A DNA stretch of 64,000 nt, taken from NCBI RefSeq assembly GCF_900104025.1, contig NZ_FNIQ01000001.1, positions 248,001 through 312,000 on the forward strand. Reading direction: 5' to 3'. The notes beneath the pieces are model-generated. The model was not told the origin of the DNA. It saw only the letters and a program-made list of their open reading frames with translations, and did not search any database. The number at the start of each line of letters is the position of its first letter. The stretch's first letter is position 1. A program made the position numbers and the translations under genes. Positions 2,058 to 22,394 of this stretch are shown here, in pieces. Source of the stretch: Geodermatophilus sp. DSM 45219. Lineage in GTDB: Bacteria; Actinomycetota; Actinomycetes; Mycobacteriales; Geodermatophilaceae.

Positions 2058-2085
2058 GCTTCGGCATCCCCGGGAGGGCCTTGAG
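2058..2085 (-). promoter_or_regulatory. Probable sigma-28 (FliA-type) promoter of flgN-flgK-flgL
   Basis: On the minus strand a CTCAAG -35 element (2085-2080) and a GCCGAAGC -10 element (2065-2058) are separated by 14 bases. The general sigma-28 consensus is CTAAAG-N15-GCCGATAA. The flgN start is about 59 bases downstream of the -10. It is back-to-back with the fliA promoter, the two -35 elements being 8 bp apart. Confidence 0.6.
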
Positions 2086-2093
2086 CCGAGGTG

Positions 2094-2122
2094 CTCAAGT
2101 CCGGGCGGGGTCGTGCCGAGGA
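2094..2122 (+). promoter_or_regulatory. Probable sigma-28 (FliA-type) promoter of fliA
   Basis: CTCAAG at 2094-2099, a 15-base spacer, then GCCGAGGA at 2115-2122: the same architecture as the flagellin promoter in this window. It suggests that fliA is transcribed by its own product. A transcript starting near 2129 excludes the GTG at 2091 as a start and leaves 2163 or 2241 as the likely fliA starts. Confidence 0.6.
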
Positions 2123-2162: not shown

Positions 2163-3134
2163 GTGAGCCCATCGCGTGCCCAGGCGCCCCTGCGGTCCAG
2201 TGCCACCGCCGCGCGCCTCCCCTCCGCTGCGACCGCCGGCGTGCCCGTCCGGCGGGACGTGCCGCGGGACGTCGACGCCCTCGTGACCGAGCACCTGCCG
2301 CTCGCCGCGTTCGCGGTCAACGCGGTGGCCTCGCGCATCTCCCTGCCCGCCCACGTCAGCCGCGAGGACCTGCTGTCCTGCGCGCGGGTGGCGCTGGTCG
2401 AGGTGGCGCGGCGGTTCGACCCGTCGGCCGGGGCCTCCTTCGCCACCTACGCCCTGGCCCGGCTGCAGGGCGCCGTGCTCGACGAGCTGCGCTCCGGCGA
2501 CTGGGCCAGCCGCTCGGTGCGCGCCGCCGCCCGGCGCACCGACGCCGCCGCCGACGCCCTCGCCATCCAGCTGGGCCGGCCCCCGACGCGGGAGGAGCTG
2601 GCCGCCAGCCTCGGCATGGCCATGAGCGACCTGGACACGCTGCAGGTCGACGTCCACCGCGCGGTCATGGTGAGCATCGACGCCGAGACCGGCCCCGACG
2701 GCGGCTCGCTCGACCTGCCCGACACGGGCGAGTCGCCGGAGCGGGCACTGCTGCGCAGCGAGCGCTCCCGGTACCTGCAGGAGGCGATCCGCCAGCTGCC
2801 GGACCGGCTCGACGAGGTCGTGGAGCGCAACTTCTTCGGGGGCGAGTCGCTCACCGACATCGCCGCCGACCTCGGCGTCACGCTGTCGCGCGTCTCCCAG
2901 ATGCGCGCCCGTGCCCTGACCCTGCTGCACGCGGCGATGAGCGAGGTCTGGGAGGGCCGGGCGGTGCCGGCCGACGGGGGCGTGCGCGCCCGCAACCAGC
3001 AGCGCTCCTACGTCGACCGCGTGGCCGGCCGCAACGCGCCGCCGGCGGCGGCCCCGCCGCTGCCCTCCCCGCGGACGTCGGCCGTCCCCCCGCACCGCAA
3101 CCCGTGGGTGACGGCGACCGGCCGGAGCGCCTGA
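2163..3134 (+). CDS. fliA: RNA polymerase sigma factor FliA (sigma-28/WhiG family)
   Basis: This sigma factor directs RNA polymerase to late flagellar promoters. Region 2 carries the sigma-28 hallmark (RRFDPSAGASFATYALARLQ followed by GAVLDELRSGDWASRSVR), region 3 is PPTREELAASLGM, and region 4 ends in a helix-turn-helix (SLTDIAADLGVTLSRVSQMR). The C-terminal 75 residues are a Pro/Arg-rich tail absent from typical 240-260-residue homologues. The start is uncertain: GTG 2163 follows an AGAAGGGA stretch and lies after the presumed promoter; GTG 2127 would overlap the -10 box, and GTG 2241 is also possible. The tail contains SYVDR, also found at the end of the FliT-like protein. Confidence 0.93.
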   Translation: MSPSRAQAPLRSSATAARLPSAATAGVPVRRDVPRDVDALVTEHLPLAAFAVNAVASRISLPAHVSREDLLSCARVALVEVARRFDPSAGASFATYALARLQGAVLDELRSGDWASRSVRAAARRTDAAADALAIQLGRPPTREELAASLGMAMSDLDTLQVDVHRAVMVSIDAETGPDGGSLDLPDTGESPERALLRSERSRYLQEAIRQLPDRLDEVVERNFFGGESLTDIAADLGVTLSRVSQMRARALTLLHAAMSEVWEGRAVPADGGVRARNQQRSYVDRVAGRNAPPAAAPPLPSPRTSAVPPHRNPWVTATGRSA

Positions 3135-3195: not shown

Positions 3196-3223
3196 GCTGT
3201 CCGGACGGCCGACCGTGACGGGC

Positions 3224-3709
3224 TCAGCCGCCGGCCGGCCGGCCGTCGACCGACCCGACGATCCGCGCCGGGTTCCCGATGACGACGGCGCGCGGCGGAA
3301 CGTCACGGGTGACCACGGCGCCAGCACCGATCATCGCTTCCCGCCCGATGGTCAGGCCCGGGAGGATCGTGGCGTTGGCGCCGATTGATGCTCCCCGCTC
3401 CACCACCGTGGACGGGAAGAACGGTGGGTGGATCCGGCTCCGCGGAAAGGGGTCGTTGGTGAACGTGACGTTCGGCCCGACGAAGACGTCGTCGGCGAGC
3501 CGGGTGCCGTCCCACAGCTGCACGCCGCACTTGACCGTGACCCGGTCCCCGACGACGACGTCGTTCTCCACGAAGACGTGGTCGCAGATGTTGCAGTCCG
3601 CGCCGATCCGCGCGCCCGGTAGGACGTGGGTGAACGCCCAGATCCGCGTCCCGGGACCGACGTCGGAGGATTCGCAGAGCCCCCGGTCGTGGACGAAGTG
3701 GCCGGTCAT
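3224..3709 (-). CDS. Left-handed beta-helix N-acetyltransferase (FdtC/QdtC/WbpD-like)
   Basis: The 161-residue protein is built of hexapeptide repeats (for example [52 protein letters not shown]), the trimeric beta-helix fold of sugar-nucleotide N-acetyltransferases. With the adjacent ketoisomerase and aminotransferase it would acetylate a dTDP-3-amino-3,6-dideoxyhexose using acetyl-CoA. The NDPFPRS segment matches the FdtC/WbpD subgroup. The ATG at 3709 overlaps the stop of the upstream glycosyltransferase (ATGA). Whether the sugar is the galacto (Fuc3NAc) or gluco (Qui3NAc) form cannot be read from this gene. Confidence 0.85.
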
Positions 3710-5037
3710 CGCGCGACCGGCTGCGTCCGGGCGGCGGCGAGGTCCACGATCCACACGGGGACCCGCCCGCGGTGCCACGTCCCGGCCCGGGGGGCGACAG
3801 CGAGCCAGCTGTCCTCGAGCAGCGCTGCGGGGTCGTCGGTCGGCACCAGGTCGACGTCGATGTCCGGCCCAGCCGCGAGGGCCGCCTCGGCCAGCGGAAC
3901 CACCGTCGCGACCAGCCTCGGGGCCACGGCCAGCACCAGGTGCGGCGCGGCGCCGGACGCCCGGACCTGCCGCAGCGCGTCGATCGTCGCAGCCACCTCG
4001 ATCGGGTCCGGTGCGGGCGCCGCCAGGGCGACGGCGTGCGGCCGCGACCACACGTCGAGCTGCTGGCTGAGGCGGCTCAGGGCGACGGGAGCGTGCGCCC
4101 GCTCCGAGAGGGGACGGCCACCGTGCGCAGCGTCGCCCGTGTGCAGTTCCAGCAGCCGGGAGGTCGACAGGAAGGCGGCCTCGAGGACCTCCCCGGTGTA
4201 CTCGGAGGCCGGCAGCGCGGAGAGGGTGCCGGCGGCCATCGCCAGGGCCTCTACGTGGGCCTGCCGCTCCTCGTCCGCGGCGGCAAGGAACCCCTGCCGC
4301 CGTCCCCAGTCGATGATGCGCGGCCAGTCGAGGGCCCCGCCCGCGAGAACCCGGGGGTTGGCGGTCTGCTGCAGGCCATGCCTGCGGAAGGAGCTCAGCG
4401 TCCTGGGTGTGTAGTAGGCCTTGCCTCTGCTCAGCAGCCGCAGCCACAGGGCGACGTCCTCGTTGGCGACGAGGGGCCGGCCGTCGAGCTCCACCAGATC
4501 GGCCGGATCGACGTCGGAACGGCGGAACAAGCAGGTGGACGGCTCGCCGATGATGTTCCGGCACGAGCTGAGAACAGTGTCACCCAGCTGACGCCCGTCG
4601 AGCAGGCCCTCGGTGGTGAGCAGGAGGGGACTGGCGCCCTCGATGGCGTGCCCCTCCTCGTCGATGATCGACCGGTGCGAGAACGCCAGCGTCACCGCGC
4701 GGGAGTGTTCGAGGCCGCCGACGAGGGTTGCGACGCAGTCCGGTTCCAGGAGGTCGTCGTGGTAGAGGAACTTGACGTACTCGCCACGTGCCTCCGTCAG
4801 CAGGCTCAGCGAGTTGCCCCAGGCCCCCCGCGCCGGCGCGTGGCGGAGCACTCGGATCCGGGAGTCCGTTGCCGCGAGCTCACGCAGGAGGCCCGCCGTG
4901 CCGTCGGTGGACGAGTCGTCCCCGACGAGGACCTCGATCGCCTGATGCGTCTGCGCCAGCGCCGAGCGCAGCGTTTCCCCGAGGAAGCGCTCCCCGTTGT
5001 ATGTGGGGACCAGGACGCTGACCAGCGCCGCGTTCAC
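3706..5037 (-). CDS. Family 2 (GT-A) glycosyltransferase
   Basis: The N-terminal 230 residues are a GT2 domain: [20 protein letters not shown], the nucleotide-binding [10 protein letters not shown], and the metal-binding region [12 protein letters not shown], followed by [12 protein letters not shown] (ED acid/base motif). The C-terminal 200 residues form a second domain rich in Ala/Leu that I do not recognise. The 443-residue product starts at GTG 5037, overlapping the aminotransferase stop (GTGA). It is the third gene of the island and probably transfers the amino sugar made by its neighbours. The acceptor is unknown; flagellin is suggested only by location. Confidence 0.88.
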
Positions 5038-6149
5038 GGCCGGAACGTCCGGATCGCATCGACGACCCGCTCCTGCGCGGATTCGGGCAGGTGGGGACCG
5101 ATCGGCAAGCTGAGCACCTCTCGAGCGAGTGCGTCGGCGACCGGGAGGGCGGCGTCCGCGAGCGGGGTGCCCGCGAATGCCGGCTGCCGGTGCGGCGGCA
5201 CGGGGTAGTGGATCCCGGTCTCGACCCCGCGGGCTGCGAGATGGGATCGGAGGGCATCGCGGTGCGGGGTGCGCACGACGTAGAGGTGCCAGACCGGTGT
5301 GGCCCAATCGGCGATCGTGGGCAACCGCAGGTCGAGGCCGGCCAGGGCTTCCTCGTACCGGCGGGCGATCTGCGCCCGGCGGTCGTTGAACTCCCCAAGC
5401 CGGGAGAGCTTCACCGACAGCACGGCGGCCTGGAGCTCGTCGAGCCGGCTGTTGTACCCGACCTCGTCGTGCCTGTACTTCTCCGTCGACCCGTAGTTGC
5501 GCAACGACCGCACCCGGTCGGCCACCTCCGGGTCCGAAGTCGTCACCGCGCCCCCGTCCCCGAGGGCGCCGAGGTTCTTACCGGGGTAGAAGCTCCACGC
5601 CGTCGCGTGCGCGAGGCCCCCGACCGGACGGCCGCGGAGGGTGGCGCCGTGGGCCTGCGCGGCGTCGTCCAGCACGGCCAGGCCGTGCCGCGCGGCCAGC
5701 GCCATCAGCGGGCCGAGGTCCACGGGGTGCCCGTAGAGGTGGACCGGCAGGATCGCCCGTGTGCGCGGGCCGACGGCTGCCGTCACCGCGTCGACCTCCC
5801 ACCGCCCGGTCACCGGGGAGACGTCCACGGGAACGGGAACCGCTCCCACCTGGATGACGGCCAGCCAGGTGGCGATGAAGGTGTGCGAGGGGACGAGGAC
5901 CTCCTCGCCCGGTGCCACGCCCAACGCCCGGAGACCCAACGACAGGGCGTCCAGCCCACTACCCACGCCCACGGCACTCCGGGCGCCTACCGCGGCGGCC
6001 CAGTCCCGCTCGAAGGTCGCCAGCCGCGGGCCCAGCAGGACGCGCTCGCCGTCCAGCACCCCGAGCAGAGCCGCCGAGAGTTCGGGCCGCAGCTCGGCGT
6101 GGAGGGCGGGGAGGTCCAAGAAGGGGACCGTCGAGCACACCGCGGTCAC
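5034..6149 (-). CDS. fdtB: DegT/DnrJ/EryC1 sugar aminotransferase (FdtB-like)
   Basis: A PLP-dependent aminotransferase of 371 residues that would convert a dTDP-3-keto-6-deoxyhexose to the 3-amino sugar. Visible hallmarks are the N-terminal FLDLPALHAEL, SGLDALSLGLRALG (cofactor phosphate binding), LDDAAQAHGA, and the Schiff-base lysine in SFYPGKNLGALGDGGA (about K191). It resembles FdtB/QdtB more than 4-aminotransferases because it pairs with an FdtA-like isomerase. The GTG start at 6149 overlaps the previous stop by four bases; the next gene overlaps likewise, so the five-gene island is one tightly coupled operon. Confidence 0.88.
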   Translation of the reverse strand: MTAVCSTVPFLDLPALHAELRPELSAALLGVLDGERVLLGPRLATFERDWAAAVGARSAVGVGSGLDALSLGLRALGVAPGEEVLVPSHTFIATWLAVIQVGAVPVPVDVSPVTGRWEVDAVTAAVGPRTRAILPVHLYGHPVDLGPLMALAARHGLAVLDDAAQAHGATLRGRPVGGLAHATAWSFYPGKNLGALGDGGAVTTSDPEVADRVRSLRNYGSTEKYRHDEVGYNSRLDELQAAVLSVKLSRLGEFNDRRAQIARRYEEALAGLDLRLPTIADWATPVWHLYVVRTPHRDALRSHLAARGVETGIHYPVPPHRQPAFAGTPLADAALPVADALAREVLSLPIGPHLPESAQERVVDAIRTFRP

Positions 6150-6682
6150 GAACCCACCTCCCGGGCCCGCCCGGCCGCCACCGCGAACTCGTCGTGATCG
6201 CGGTAGTAGTCGGCCTCCTCGTACGGCCTCGACGCCAGCACCAGGCAGACGCTCCCGCTCGAGAAGTTGGCCAGCTCGCGCCACACCATCCGTGGCACGT
6301 AGAGGCCGTAGTAGGAGCGGTTGAGGAAGAAGCGCTCGGTGTGCACGCCGTCGTCGACCAGGACGTCGAAGCTGCCGGCCGCGGCGATGACCAGCTGCTC
6401 CAGCTGCCGGTGCGCGTGGCCACCCCGGGACTCACCGCCGGGCACGTCGTAGAGGTAGTAGACGCGGGCGATGTCGAAGGGCACGTGCCCCGAGCCCTCG
6501 ATGAAGGTCAGGTTGCCGCGGGGGTCGGTGATCCGCGGCAGGTCGACGATCCGACAGCCGGACGCCCCGGCGACCCGGGACGAGTCCATGTCGGCCCCGC
6601 GATGCCCCGGCGACCCGGTGAGCATCATCTCGGCGGCGCGGACGCCGGCGCCGTCCGGACGGGCCGGCCGCAGTCCGGTCAT
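6146..6682 (-). CDS. fdtA: dTDP-6-deoxyhex-4-ulose 3,4-ketoisomerase (FdtA/QdtA-like cupin)
   Basis: A small cupin enzyme that moves the keto group of dTDP-4-keto-6-deoxyglucose from C4 to C3, setting up 3-amination. The WxcM/FdtA signature is clear: DPRGNLTFIEG, then GGESRGGHAHRQLEQLVIAA with the HAH active-site pair, then GLYVPRMVWREL. The family is usually about 135-150 residues; the ATG at 6682 (overlapping the upstream stop) gives 178 with a non-conserved N-terminal extension, so translation may really begin at an internal ATG such as 6589. The substrate must come from RmlA/RmlB encoded outside the window. Confidence 0.85.
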   Translation of the reverse strand: MTGLRPARPDGAGVRAAEMMLTGSPGHRGADMDSSRVAGASGCRIVDLPRITDPRGNLTFIEGSGHVPFDIARVYYLYDVPGGESRGGHAHRQLEQLVIAAAGSFDVLVDDGVHTERFFLNRSYYGLYVPRMVWRELANFSSGSVCLVLASRPYEEADYYRDHDEFAVAAGRAREVGS

Positions 6683-7758
6683 GCCCCGATCCGGTCTGCG
6701 CGGGTGCGGACCTCCCGCGCCTGACGCCAGGCGCCGGCCCACAGCTCGGCCGTGTGCTCGGTCAGGTGCTGCGCCAGGACCTGCTCGCGGGCGGCCGCCG
6801 CCTGCTCGCGCCGCCAGCCGGCGTCCTCCACGGCACGCGAGATCGCCGTGGCCCAGTCGCGGGGGCGCTTGGCGCGGTAGCCGAGGGCGAGCCGCTCGTA
6901 CTCCGCACTCGGCGAGCGGACGGCGAAGACCCCGCGCGCGGAGTACTCCATGACCTTCAGCCAGCTCTTGCAGTTGTTGAAGGAGTCGATGCGCAGCGGC
7001 GCGACGCCGACGTCGAACCGCTCACCGACCGCAGCGGTGAAGGCGTCGACGTCCTCGACCCACGGGATGTGCTCCGGCTCCTCGGCCAGCCGCAGCCGGT
7101 GCTTGGCGTCGGCCGCCCCGCCCATGATGGCGAACCGGCTCCGGCCGCGGGTCCGGTCCAGCGCCTGCTGCAGCCCCGACCCCATCTCCTGCAGGTCGTA
7201 GGGGTGCGTGCCCACCGTGCCGGTCCAGCCGACCGTCACGACGTCGGGCTCGCGCTCGTAGGCCGGCGGCAGCTCGGCGATCCGCCGCGGGATGGCGTTG
7301 GGCACCACCGCGCCGTGCCCACGGGGGCCGTACTCCTCGAGCAGGTTGGGGGTGGACACGGTGACGAAGTCGGCCTCGCGGGCGCATGCCTCGGCGATCC
7401 GCCCCACGCCCCTGCGGATCAGCACGTCGTGGCCCTGGTGCCCGGGCGGCAGCGCGGTGAGGTGGTCGTCGAGCTCGACGACCACAGCGACGCCCTGGGC
7501 CTGCAGCAGCCGCAGGCAGTCGAGCATCTCCTTGGTCTTCGGCAGCTGGAGGACGACGACGTCGGCGCCCTGGGCGTCGACCTCGCGGACCACCATCGGC
7601 CCCCCGGGGTTCTCCGGGTCGGGGGCCATCGTGGTCTTCAGACCGCGCTGGACGGTGACCTGGATGCCCAGGTCGGCCTCCTCGACGGCCCGCGCCGGCT
7701 CGGACATGCGGTGGTAGAGGGAGCCGAGGAAGACGGTGGTGCACAGCAGCACGTTCAT
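6679..7758 (-). CDS. GT-B fold glycosyltransferase
   Basis: First gene of the glycan operon. The 359-residue protein begins MNVLLCTTVFLGSLYHRMSE and shows a glycosyltransferase GT-B layout: an N-terminal domain with the ADVVVLQLPKTKEMLDCLRL segment and a C-terminal nucleotide-binding domain with VTVGWTGTVGTHPYDL and DVGVAPLRIDSFNNCKSWLK, then VMEYSARGVFAVRSPSAEY, the usual donor-binding glutamate region. Codons upstream of 7758 stay open but show no coding pattern, so the ATG at 7758 is chosen. Donor and acceptor are not evident; proximity to fliC suggests flagellin. Confidence 0.82.
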   Translation of the reverse strand: MNVLLCTTVFLGSLYHRMSEPARAVEEADLGIQVTVQRGLKTTMAPDPENPGGPMVVREVDAQGADVVVLQLPKTKEMLDCLRLLQAQGVAVVVELDDHLTALPPGHQGHDVLIRRGVGRIAEACAREADFVTVSTPNLLEEYGPRGHGAVVPNAIPRRIAELPPAYEREPDVVTVGWTGTVGTHPYDLQEMGSGLQQALDRTRGRSRFAIMGGAADAKHRLRLAEEPEHIPWVEDVDAFTAAVGERFDVGVAPLRIDSFNNCKSWLKVMEYSARGVFAVRSPSAEYERLALGYRAKRPRDWATAISRAVEDAGWRREQAAAAREQVLAQHLTEHTAELWAGAWRQAREVRTRADRIGA

Positions 7759-8025
7759 GGTCGAAGGCGTCCTCACGGCGCCCGGGTGCCGGGCGCGGGT
7801 TCGCGGGCCGCGCGGCGTGGCCGCGCGGCAGGGATCGGGGAACCGGGGTGCGTCCACCGGACGCTCGACCCCGCGGGCCCACCTTCCCGGCCCGGTGTGC
7901 CGGCCGGTCGTCCCTGGGTGGCGGACACGCCGCCCCGCGCACCGCACGTCACAGGCGCCCGCCCCGTCCCACGGCAGGGGTCGCCCCGTCGGGTGAGACG
8001 CCGCCGGAGATTTCTCGCCGTTCGC

Positions 8026-8054
8026 CTCAAGGTCAGCTCGCCCGCGGCCGTAAT
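8026..8054 (+). promoter_or_regulatory. Sigma-28 type promoter of the flagellin gene
   Basis: In the 364-bp gap 7759-8122 the only clear signal is CTCAAG (8026-8031), a 15-base spacer and GCCGTAAT (8047-8054), close to the sigma-28 consensus. It leaves a leader of about 60 bases with a strong AAGGAGG ribosome binding site at 8110-8116. I see no promoter of this type for the divergent glycan operon in the same gap. Confidence 0.75.
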
Positions 8055-8122
8055 GACACCTGCAAGGCCGCAGCACGGATGCAGCGGTTACCAGGAACGA
8101 CCCGATTCCAAGGAGGAACACC

Positions 8123-9053: not shown

Positions 9054-10439
9054 ATGGTCAGCCTGAGCGTCGACGGCCTGGTCTCCGGGCTGGACACCAC
9101 CTCGCTGGTCTCCCAGCTCGTCGCGGCCGAGGCCCTGCCGCAGACCCGGCTCAAGACGCAGCTGACCACCACGCAGGCCGCGGCGACCGCCTACCGGGCG
9201 GTCAACTCCAAGGTCGACGCCGTGCGCACCGCCGCAGAAGCGCTCACCGCCGACGGCCTCGCTGCCGCCCGGACGGCGAAGAGCAGCGCCACCTCGGTGA
9301 GCGCGAGCGCCACGTCGACCGCGGTCACCGGCAGCCGGCTCAGCTTCACCGTCGAGTCCCTCGCCTCGGCCGCCAGCTACCTGAGCGCCAGCACCTGGGC
9401 CTCGCCCACCACCCCGGTCCGCAGCCCCTCGAACCCGGACGGCACCGCCGCCCCGTCACCCTGGCCGCTGACGATCAGCCGCGAGGGCCAGGCCCCGGTG
9501 ACCATCGAGCCGCCGGCCGGCGCGACCCTGGCGCAGACGGTCGCCCACATCAACGGCCTGGAGGACCTCGGCATCCGAGCCACCGCGGTCAAGGGCAGCG
9601 ACGGCTACCACCTGCAGCTGAGCAGCGCGACCTCCGGTGCGGACGGCGACTTCACGGTCGCCACGGCGGCCGGTGCCCAGTTCACGCAGCTCTCCTTCGC
9701 GACCGACGCCACCCTCGACCTCGGCGGCGGCATCAAGGCCACGTCGTCGACCAACACCTTCGCCGAGCTGATGACCGGCGTCTCGGTCACGGTCACCGAG
9801 CGGGGTGCCGCTGCGGTCGTCGAGGTGGCCGAGGACCCCAAGAGCGTCTCCGCCAAGGTGAAGACCCTCGTCGACGCGGTCAACTCCGCGCTCGACTCCA
9901 TCAAGACCCACAGCAACAGCGAGACCGACAGCAAGGCTGTCCTCAAGGGCGACTTCGAGCTGCGCACGCTGACCAGCGAGCTGCTGCAGAACGTCTCCAG
10001 CGCCGTGAGCGGCGCCGGCTCCCCCGGCGCCATCGGCATCGAGCTGACCCGTGACGGCACGGTCGTGTTCGACGAGACCACCTTCCTGGCCGCGCTGGCG
10101 TCGGACCCCGACCTCGTCGAGCGGATGCTCGCCGGCGCGCCGGCCGACCCCACGGCCGCGCCGCCGGTGACGGCCGTCGACGGCCTGAGCCAGCGCCTGC
10201 AGAAGCTGACGGAGCGGTTCGCGGACTCGACCACCGGCACCCTGACGCTGCTGGCCAAGGGCCGCGACGCCCTCGCCGAGGACTTCAAGGACCGGATCGC
10301 CGACTGGGACCTGCGGCTGGCCACGCGCAAGGAGACCCTGACCCGCCAGTTCACCGCCATGGAGACCGCGCTCAGCTCGCTGCGCAACCAGTCCACCTGG
10401 CTCGCCGGTCAGCTCAACGCGCTGCCCAGCTCAAGCTGA
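9054..10439 (+). CDS. fliD: Flagellar filament capping protein FliD
   Basis: FliD (HAP2) sits at the filament tip and folds incoming flagellin. The 461-residue product begins with the FliD_N motif (SLSVDGLVSGLDTTSLVSQL, VAAEALPQTRLKTQL) and ends with the FliD_C helices (GLSQRLQKLTERFADSTTGT, RIADWDLRLATRKETLTRQF, TAMETALSSLRNQSTWLAGQ). It follows the fliC terminator and has its own GGAGG ribosome binding site. I see no clear separate promoter; low-level read-through from fliC or a promoter I cannot recognise would drive fliD-fliS. Confidence 0.95.
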   Translation: MVSLSVDGLVSGLDTTSLVSQLVAAEALPQTRLKTQLTTTQAAATAYRAVNSKVDAVRTAAEALTADGLAAARTAKSSATSVSASATSTAVTGSRLSFTVESLASAASYLSASTWASPTTPVRSPSNPDGTAAPSPWPLTISREGQAPVTIEPPAGATLAQTVAHINGLEDLGIRATAVKGSDGYHLQLSSATSGADGDFTVATAAGAQFTQLSFATDATLDLGGGIKATSSTNTFAELMTGVSVTVTERGAAAVVEVAEDPKSVSAKVKTLVDAVNSALDSIKTHSNSETDSKAVLKGDFELRTLTSELLQNVSSAVSGAGSPGAIGIELTRDGTVVFDETTFLAALASDPDLVERMLAGAPADPTAAPPVTAVDGLSQRLQKLTERFADSTTGTLTLLAKGRDALAEDFKDRIADWDLRLATRKETLTRQFTAMETALSSLRNQSTWLAGQLNALPSSS

Positions 10440-10492
10440 CGCCTGCCCCGCCGAACCTCTCTGTACCACCGCTTCCCCCAGGAGACCGCCTG

Positions 10493-22365: not shown

Positions 22366-22394
22366 CTCAAGCCGTGCCCGCGCGACGCCGATGA
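22366..22394 (+). promoter_or_regulatory. Sigma-28 type promoter of flbD-motA-motB-fliL
   Basis: CTCAAG (22366-22371), a 15-base spacer and GCCGATGA (22387-22394), one of the best matches in the window. The flbD GTG is at 22463, giving a leader of about 60 bases with GAGGA as ribosome binding site. Confidence 0.75.

Follow-up and report, generated by a model that had tools for sequence, protein, structure and literature searches.

Probable back-to-back sigma-28-type promoters between flgN and fliA in Geodermatophilus, with a fliA side found only in Geodermatophilaceae among the loci examined

The short stretch between the flagellar genes flgN and fliA in Geodermatophilus sp. DSM 45219 probably holds two separate back-to-back sigma-28-type promoters, namely an older leftward one for the junction-protein operon and a rightward, family-specific one for fliA. 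The leftward promoter would drive flgN-flgK-flgL-fliW-csrA and appears the older of the two across the actinomycete loci examined, and the rightward one would give fliA a sigma-28-type promoter of its own, here found only within Geodermatophilaceae. FliA holoenzyme (and perhaps WhiG too) could then amplify fliA and turn on the junction genes together. The direct basis for this consists of sequence, position, conservation, and the recurrence of the box ahead of further motility genes; from these, we infer promoter activity, the sigma factor used, and positive feedback. An earlier sequence-only reading of this DNA had proposed such a loop and was largely right, the components being ordinary and their arrangement mildly novel.

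The window, that is, the whole stretch of DNA analyzed, covers 64 kb (contig C5, 248001–312000) of a 4.97-Mb genome. On its minus strand lie flgN (1505–1999), encoding a filament-junction chaperone (Pfam PF05130 FlgN, 69.9 bits), and flgK (78–1508), encoding a hook-filament junction protein (TIGR02492, 290.7 bits), with flgN as the first gene in the operon order flgN-flgK-flgL-fliW-csrA. On the plus strand, fliA (2163–3134) encodes a sigma factor of the FliA/WhiG group, recognized by TIGR02479 and by Pfam sigma70 regions 2, 3, and 4. Its GTG start at 2163, with the ribosome-binding-site-like GAGAAGGG, is more likely than the ORF-caller start at 2091, which falls within the promoter. A GCCGAGAAGG-like block (2146–2165 in the window), found in most family sequences, abuts the fliA start codon and is a possible ribosome-binding site. 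Between fliA and fliC (3200–8120), the window holds acetyltransferase-, glycosyltransferase-, and aminotransferase-like ORFs of a sugar-modification type, as judged by eye; in some relatives (e.g., G036 and G018), fliC follows within about 160 bases after fliA.

The two putative promoters face away from each other. Toward flgN, on the minus strand, the −10 box GCCGAA (2065–2060; TCGGC at 2061–2065 on the plus strand) is separated by 14 bp from the −35 hexamer CTCAAG (2080–2085; CTTGAG on the plus strand), and immediately upstream of this hexamer lies a possible −35 extension, CTCGG (2086–2090, minus strand; CCGAG on the plus strand). Toward fliA, on the plus strand, the −35 hexamer CTCAAG (2094–2099) and, after 15 bp, the −10 box GCCGAG (2115–2120) are identified from both sequence and family conservation. 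Direct reading, with 8 bp between the hexamers, matches the earlier description exactly in position, in both hexamers, and in the 14- and 15-bp spacers, including CTTGAG-N8-CTCAAG at 2080–2099. CTCA is one form of the sigma-28 −35 element, and both sides combine GCCGA with a TAAA/CTCA-like −35 at the roughly 15–17 bp of a sigma-28-type promoter. Since both −35 hexamers are CTCAAG when read on the strand they serve, the two together form the palindrome. In its exact form, it occurs once in the 64 kb and in none of 100 window shuffles, while about one match per window is expected by chance once two mismatches are allowed. When the 163 bp between flgN and fliA were shuffled 20,000 times by dinucleotides, CTCAAG-N14/15-GCCGA appeared on both strands in no shuffle and on one strand in nine. 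Taking the first G of GCCGA as −14, the transcription starts are estimated at about 2129 (plus strand) and 2051 (minus strand), hence 78 bp apart, which is borderline for exclusion of two polymerases; in relatives, the estimated separation ranges from 65 to 99 bp.

The same box, CTCAAG-N14/15-GCC, also stands ahead of other motility genes in this genome, which identifies it as a sigma-28 (FliA/WhiG-type) promoter motif. On the plus strand of the window, it precedes fliC (CTCAAG-N15-GCCGTA, 8026–8052; the same form precedes fliC in relatives), fliS (CTCAAG-N14-GCCGA, 10430–10454; FliS by Pfam), and flbD-motAB (CTCAAG-N15-GCCGA with TTCGG in front, 22366–22391; FlbD and MotA by Pfam). Further matches in promoter position lie before or near cheB, an MCP gene, and genes for a PilZ protein and a protein with a PAS domain, so late flagellar and chemotaxis genes are both represented; the case is less clear for a CHASE3 histidine kinase, an amidase, and some others. 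Genome-wide, CTCAAG-N13-16-GCCGA shows no enrichment (31 matches vs 27 for a reversed control pattern), and most of the 31 matches are intragenic; the evidential weight of the box lies in its position, not in the number of matches. In most of 30 relatives examined, the fliC promoter has GCCGT rather than GCCGA as its −10, and at most of these promoters TTCGC or TTCGG precedes CTCAAG. Promoters of the FliA family in Actinoplanes missouriensis reportedly follow CTCA-N15-17-GCCGAA and would thus share core, spacing, and phylum with the site described here; we know of no claim that two such promoters stand back to back between flgN and fliA in that organism.

For the comparison within the family, a close fliA was found in 99 of 112 genomes, giving 99 loci. 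All of them have divergent flgN and fliA, and all keep the flgN-side frame TCGGC-N14/15-hexamer-YCGA. The fliA-side box, CTCAAG-N14-16-GCCGA, is exact in 50 loci. A scan of GTDB contigs for the combined pattern placed 38 of 45 matches in Geodermatophilaceae (Geodermatophilus, Blastococcus, Klenkia, Modestobacter, one Geodermatophilaceae record, and L247, which is counted here despite its Bacillus label) and the other 7 in scattered phyla. Outside the family, we compared 49 loci at order and class level (40 of 48 listed places plus 9 order-level loci). Divergent flgN-fliA is present in 39 of these, the other 10 having no recognizable divergent flgN in the stretch, and CTCA-N15-17-GCCGA points toward flgN in 28 of the 39. 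None of the 49 carries a sigma-28 box toward fliA. From this, the flgN promoter probably came first, and the fliA-side promoter looks like a gain at family level, possibly a repeated one. In outside loci without the box (L148–L150, L157, L176, and others), GTCACTC/GTGACT-like elements lie upstream of fliA, possibly as a developmental regulator site.

The absence of a fliA-side box from all 49 outside loci, and of a recognizable fliA-side promoter from 36 of the 99 family loci, is what one would expect if only the flgN side were a promoter and the fliA-side match were decaying or due to chance, with fliA transcribed from elsewhere. We consider this unlikely, since the box is present in 63 of 99 family loci when up to one mismatch in the −35 plus −10 is allowed, with a near-invariant spacing of 15 bp (53 of 55 counted), vs 3 of 1980 shuffles of the downstream stretch under slightly stricter scoring (none of the 1980 when exact). 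Moreover, a simple scan of 1950–2200, of a kind that performs poorly on GC-rich actinobacterial promoters, detected no sigma-70-type promoter; no terminator was detected in this stretch. The claim of two divergent sigma-28-type promoters, for the flgN operon and for fliA, is supported, and relatives keep the arrangement. Within the family, the fliA-side promoter is not essential, given the 36 loci without it, which include the entire other Geodermatophilus subclade within L026–L039 (10 loci). On a quick tree with many weak branches, its presence or absence changed at least 17 times, losses and gains being indistinguishable. The subclade without the box (L026, L027, L029–L031, L033, L034, and L037–L039) has a conserved CAGGATTGGCAGGAGTTGTGCG-like block at the same place, possibly another promoter or a regulator site.

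The palindrome itself fared differently. Its conservation in relatives had been named as a check; the exact form is present in only 6 of the 99 family loci, all in the window's own genus. Among the 63 loci with a fliA-side box, the gap between the hexamers is 7–9 bp (20 loci), 18–20 bp (34), or 28 bp (2), or the hexamers overlap fully (7, five of them exact). With such varying gaps between half-sites, we rejected the palindrome as an operator for a dimeric regulator; it is better seen as a by-product of two facing boxes than as a conserved operator. A broader version holds that the palindrome, or the inner block NTYRAG-YCGA, is the site of a separate regulator of both genes and that the match to a −35 is secondary. 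The block is indeed found in 97 of the 99 family loci (the remaining two being near variants), the center of its hexamer is always CA (79) or TG (18) and never one of the one-step intermediates CG or TA, and the gaps cluster at what are roughly helical turns. However, each of the four copies of CTTGAGCCGAR in the genome has a GCCGA after N14-16, properly oriented (chance about 2% per copy), so that the block looks like part of a promoter. The gap clusters also track genera and thus represent few independent events, and the loci with a shared hexamer are out of helical phase; helical phasing was accordingly suggestive but not retained. Together with the rarity of the exact palindrome, this makes a separate regulator unlikely, and we return to two back-to-back promoters as the preferred reading.

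The overlapping loci deserve a closer look. The sequence-only reading had the two promoters sharing a −35 site, which does not hold in the window, where the boxes are 8 bp apart, but does describe five relatives in which one hexamer appears to serve both directions. In these loci (L120–L123, from four Klenkia-group genomes, and L041, from another genus), the same six base pairs stand at −35 spacing from GCCGA on either side: one strand reads GCCGA-N14/15-CTTGAG and the other CTCAAG-N15-GCCGA, and the estimated starts are about 65 bp apart. Competition between polymerases is to be expected there. One duplex hexamer could seat sigma region 4 either way because CTCAAG and CTTGAG share CT..AG.

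Across the family, the central flgN hexamer reads NTCAAG on the plus strand in 79 of 99 loci and NTTGAG in 18, the two others (TGAAG and TTCAG) being omitted from the two-state counts. Read toward flgN, it is thus CTTGA in 79 of 99 loci, vs CTCAAG in 27 and GTCAAG in 3 of the fliC promoters from 30 of the 99 genomes (Fisher 2e-16, a value that ignores relatedness). We chose these 30 genomes by hand so that they spanned the genera and included many flgN sites of the CTTGA type; each contributed its best flagellin locus only. Where fliA has a separate box, its −35 is CTCGAG in 5 of 56 cases and never CTTGAG. On the same quick, weakly supported tree, the orientation of the flgN hexamer changed at least seven times. 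A separate fliA −35 is present in 16 of 18 TTGAG loci vs 38 of 79 TCAAG loci, a link that we dropped as not significant after tree correction (5 independent pairs). Candidate causes of the orientation contrast are a −35 that works both ways, looser recognition by sigma, and a regulator whose site overlaps the hexamer. That this hexamer works as a −35 in either direction, its orientation flipping within Geodermatophilaceae and with no other −35 candidate for flgN and fliA in the five relatives, strikes us as possible but not likely. If true, this would constitute a bidirectional sigma-28 promoter in which the −35, not the −10, is shared, and would force a choice between the sigma factor and the junction operon.

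Warman et al. describe bidirectional promoters that share a −10, exclude each other, and have 18 bp as the most frequent distance between their starts; these they distinguish from separate divergent promoters (PMC12825309). A short symmetric stretch serving both directions is common to those promoters and our site. In the window, however, the boxes are separate, including the −10 boxes (2060–2065 vs 2115–2120), and the five relatives would share a −35 instead of a −10. For a shared −35 in divergent promoters, we found no description in the open-access literature searched, which is not proof of absence.

Which sigma factor reads the site is a question in its own right. The best family match of the fliA product is TIGR02479 (FliA_WhiG) at 154.6 bits, under the cut-off of 189.6, so the name FliA derives from best match and flagellar context and probably denotes a divergent relative. 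A phmmer search matched sigma regions 2 to 4 of the protein to E. coli FliA (6pmi) and to WhiG (6pfv), an alignment that fits recognition of GCCGA. The genome also encodes a bona fide WhiG orthologue (395 bits, cut-off 343; L052:1858–2757, G000:C3), whose gene adjoins recombinase-like and peptidase-like ORFs. The promoters may be real while WhiG reads one or both of them, making fliA a target of c-di-GMP/RsiG-gated WhiG instead of a self-activating gene. According to PMC8325347, WhiG and flagellar sigma factors have a common promoter specificity, with TAAA / GCCGATAA as the flagellar consensus, and RsiG is present in 16 of 16 Geodermatophilaceae. In line with WhiG control, a genome-wide search with Pfam PF04316 returned no FlgM, and E. 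coli, B. subtilis, and T. maritima controls were positive. On the other hand, fliA adjoins the site, and the box is common to other flagellar genes. All in all, control by WhiG is a real possibility, though not the one we favor.

Reading by FliA has a precedent in E. coli, where, according to PMC4183435, FliA drives flgKL and flgMN, hence genes for junction proteins and a chaperone, and is also able to transcribe fliAZY, the operon that encodes it. The flgKL site given there, TCAAGTCCGGCGGGTCGCTGCCGATAAT, resembles the fliA side of the window. The same source lists flgKL, flgMN, and fliAZY as separate operons at separate positions. E. coli also differs in its FlhDC and FlgM control, the latter without a detected counterpart in this genome. 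Because of this precedent and the sigma alignment, a positive loop is plausible and ordinary in kind. The new details are that the two promoters are packed back to back and that the one for fliA is specific to this family.

If active, the site would be a compact positive-feedback switch for flagellar genes in an actinobacterium without a recognizable FlgM. It would also show a route to autoregulation of a sigma-factor gene, in which a new promoter evolved facing away from an older, adjoining promoter of one of its targets. Finally, with a shared hexamer or gaps of about 8, 19, and 28 bp, the sister species of this family offer a natural spacing series and thereby a ready-made test of interference between divergent polymerases.
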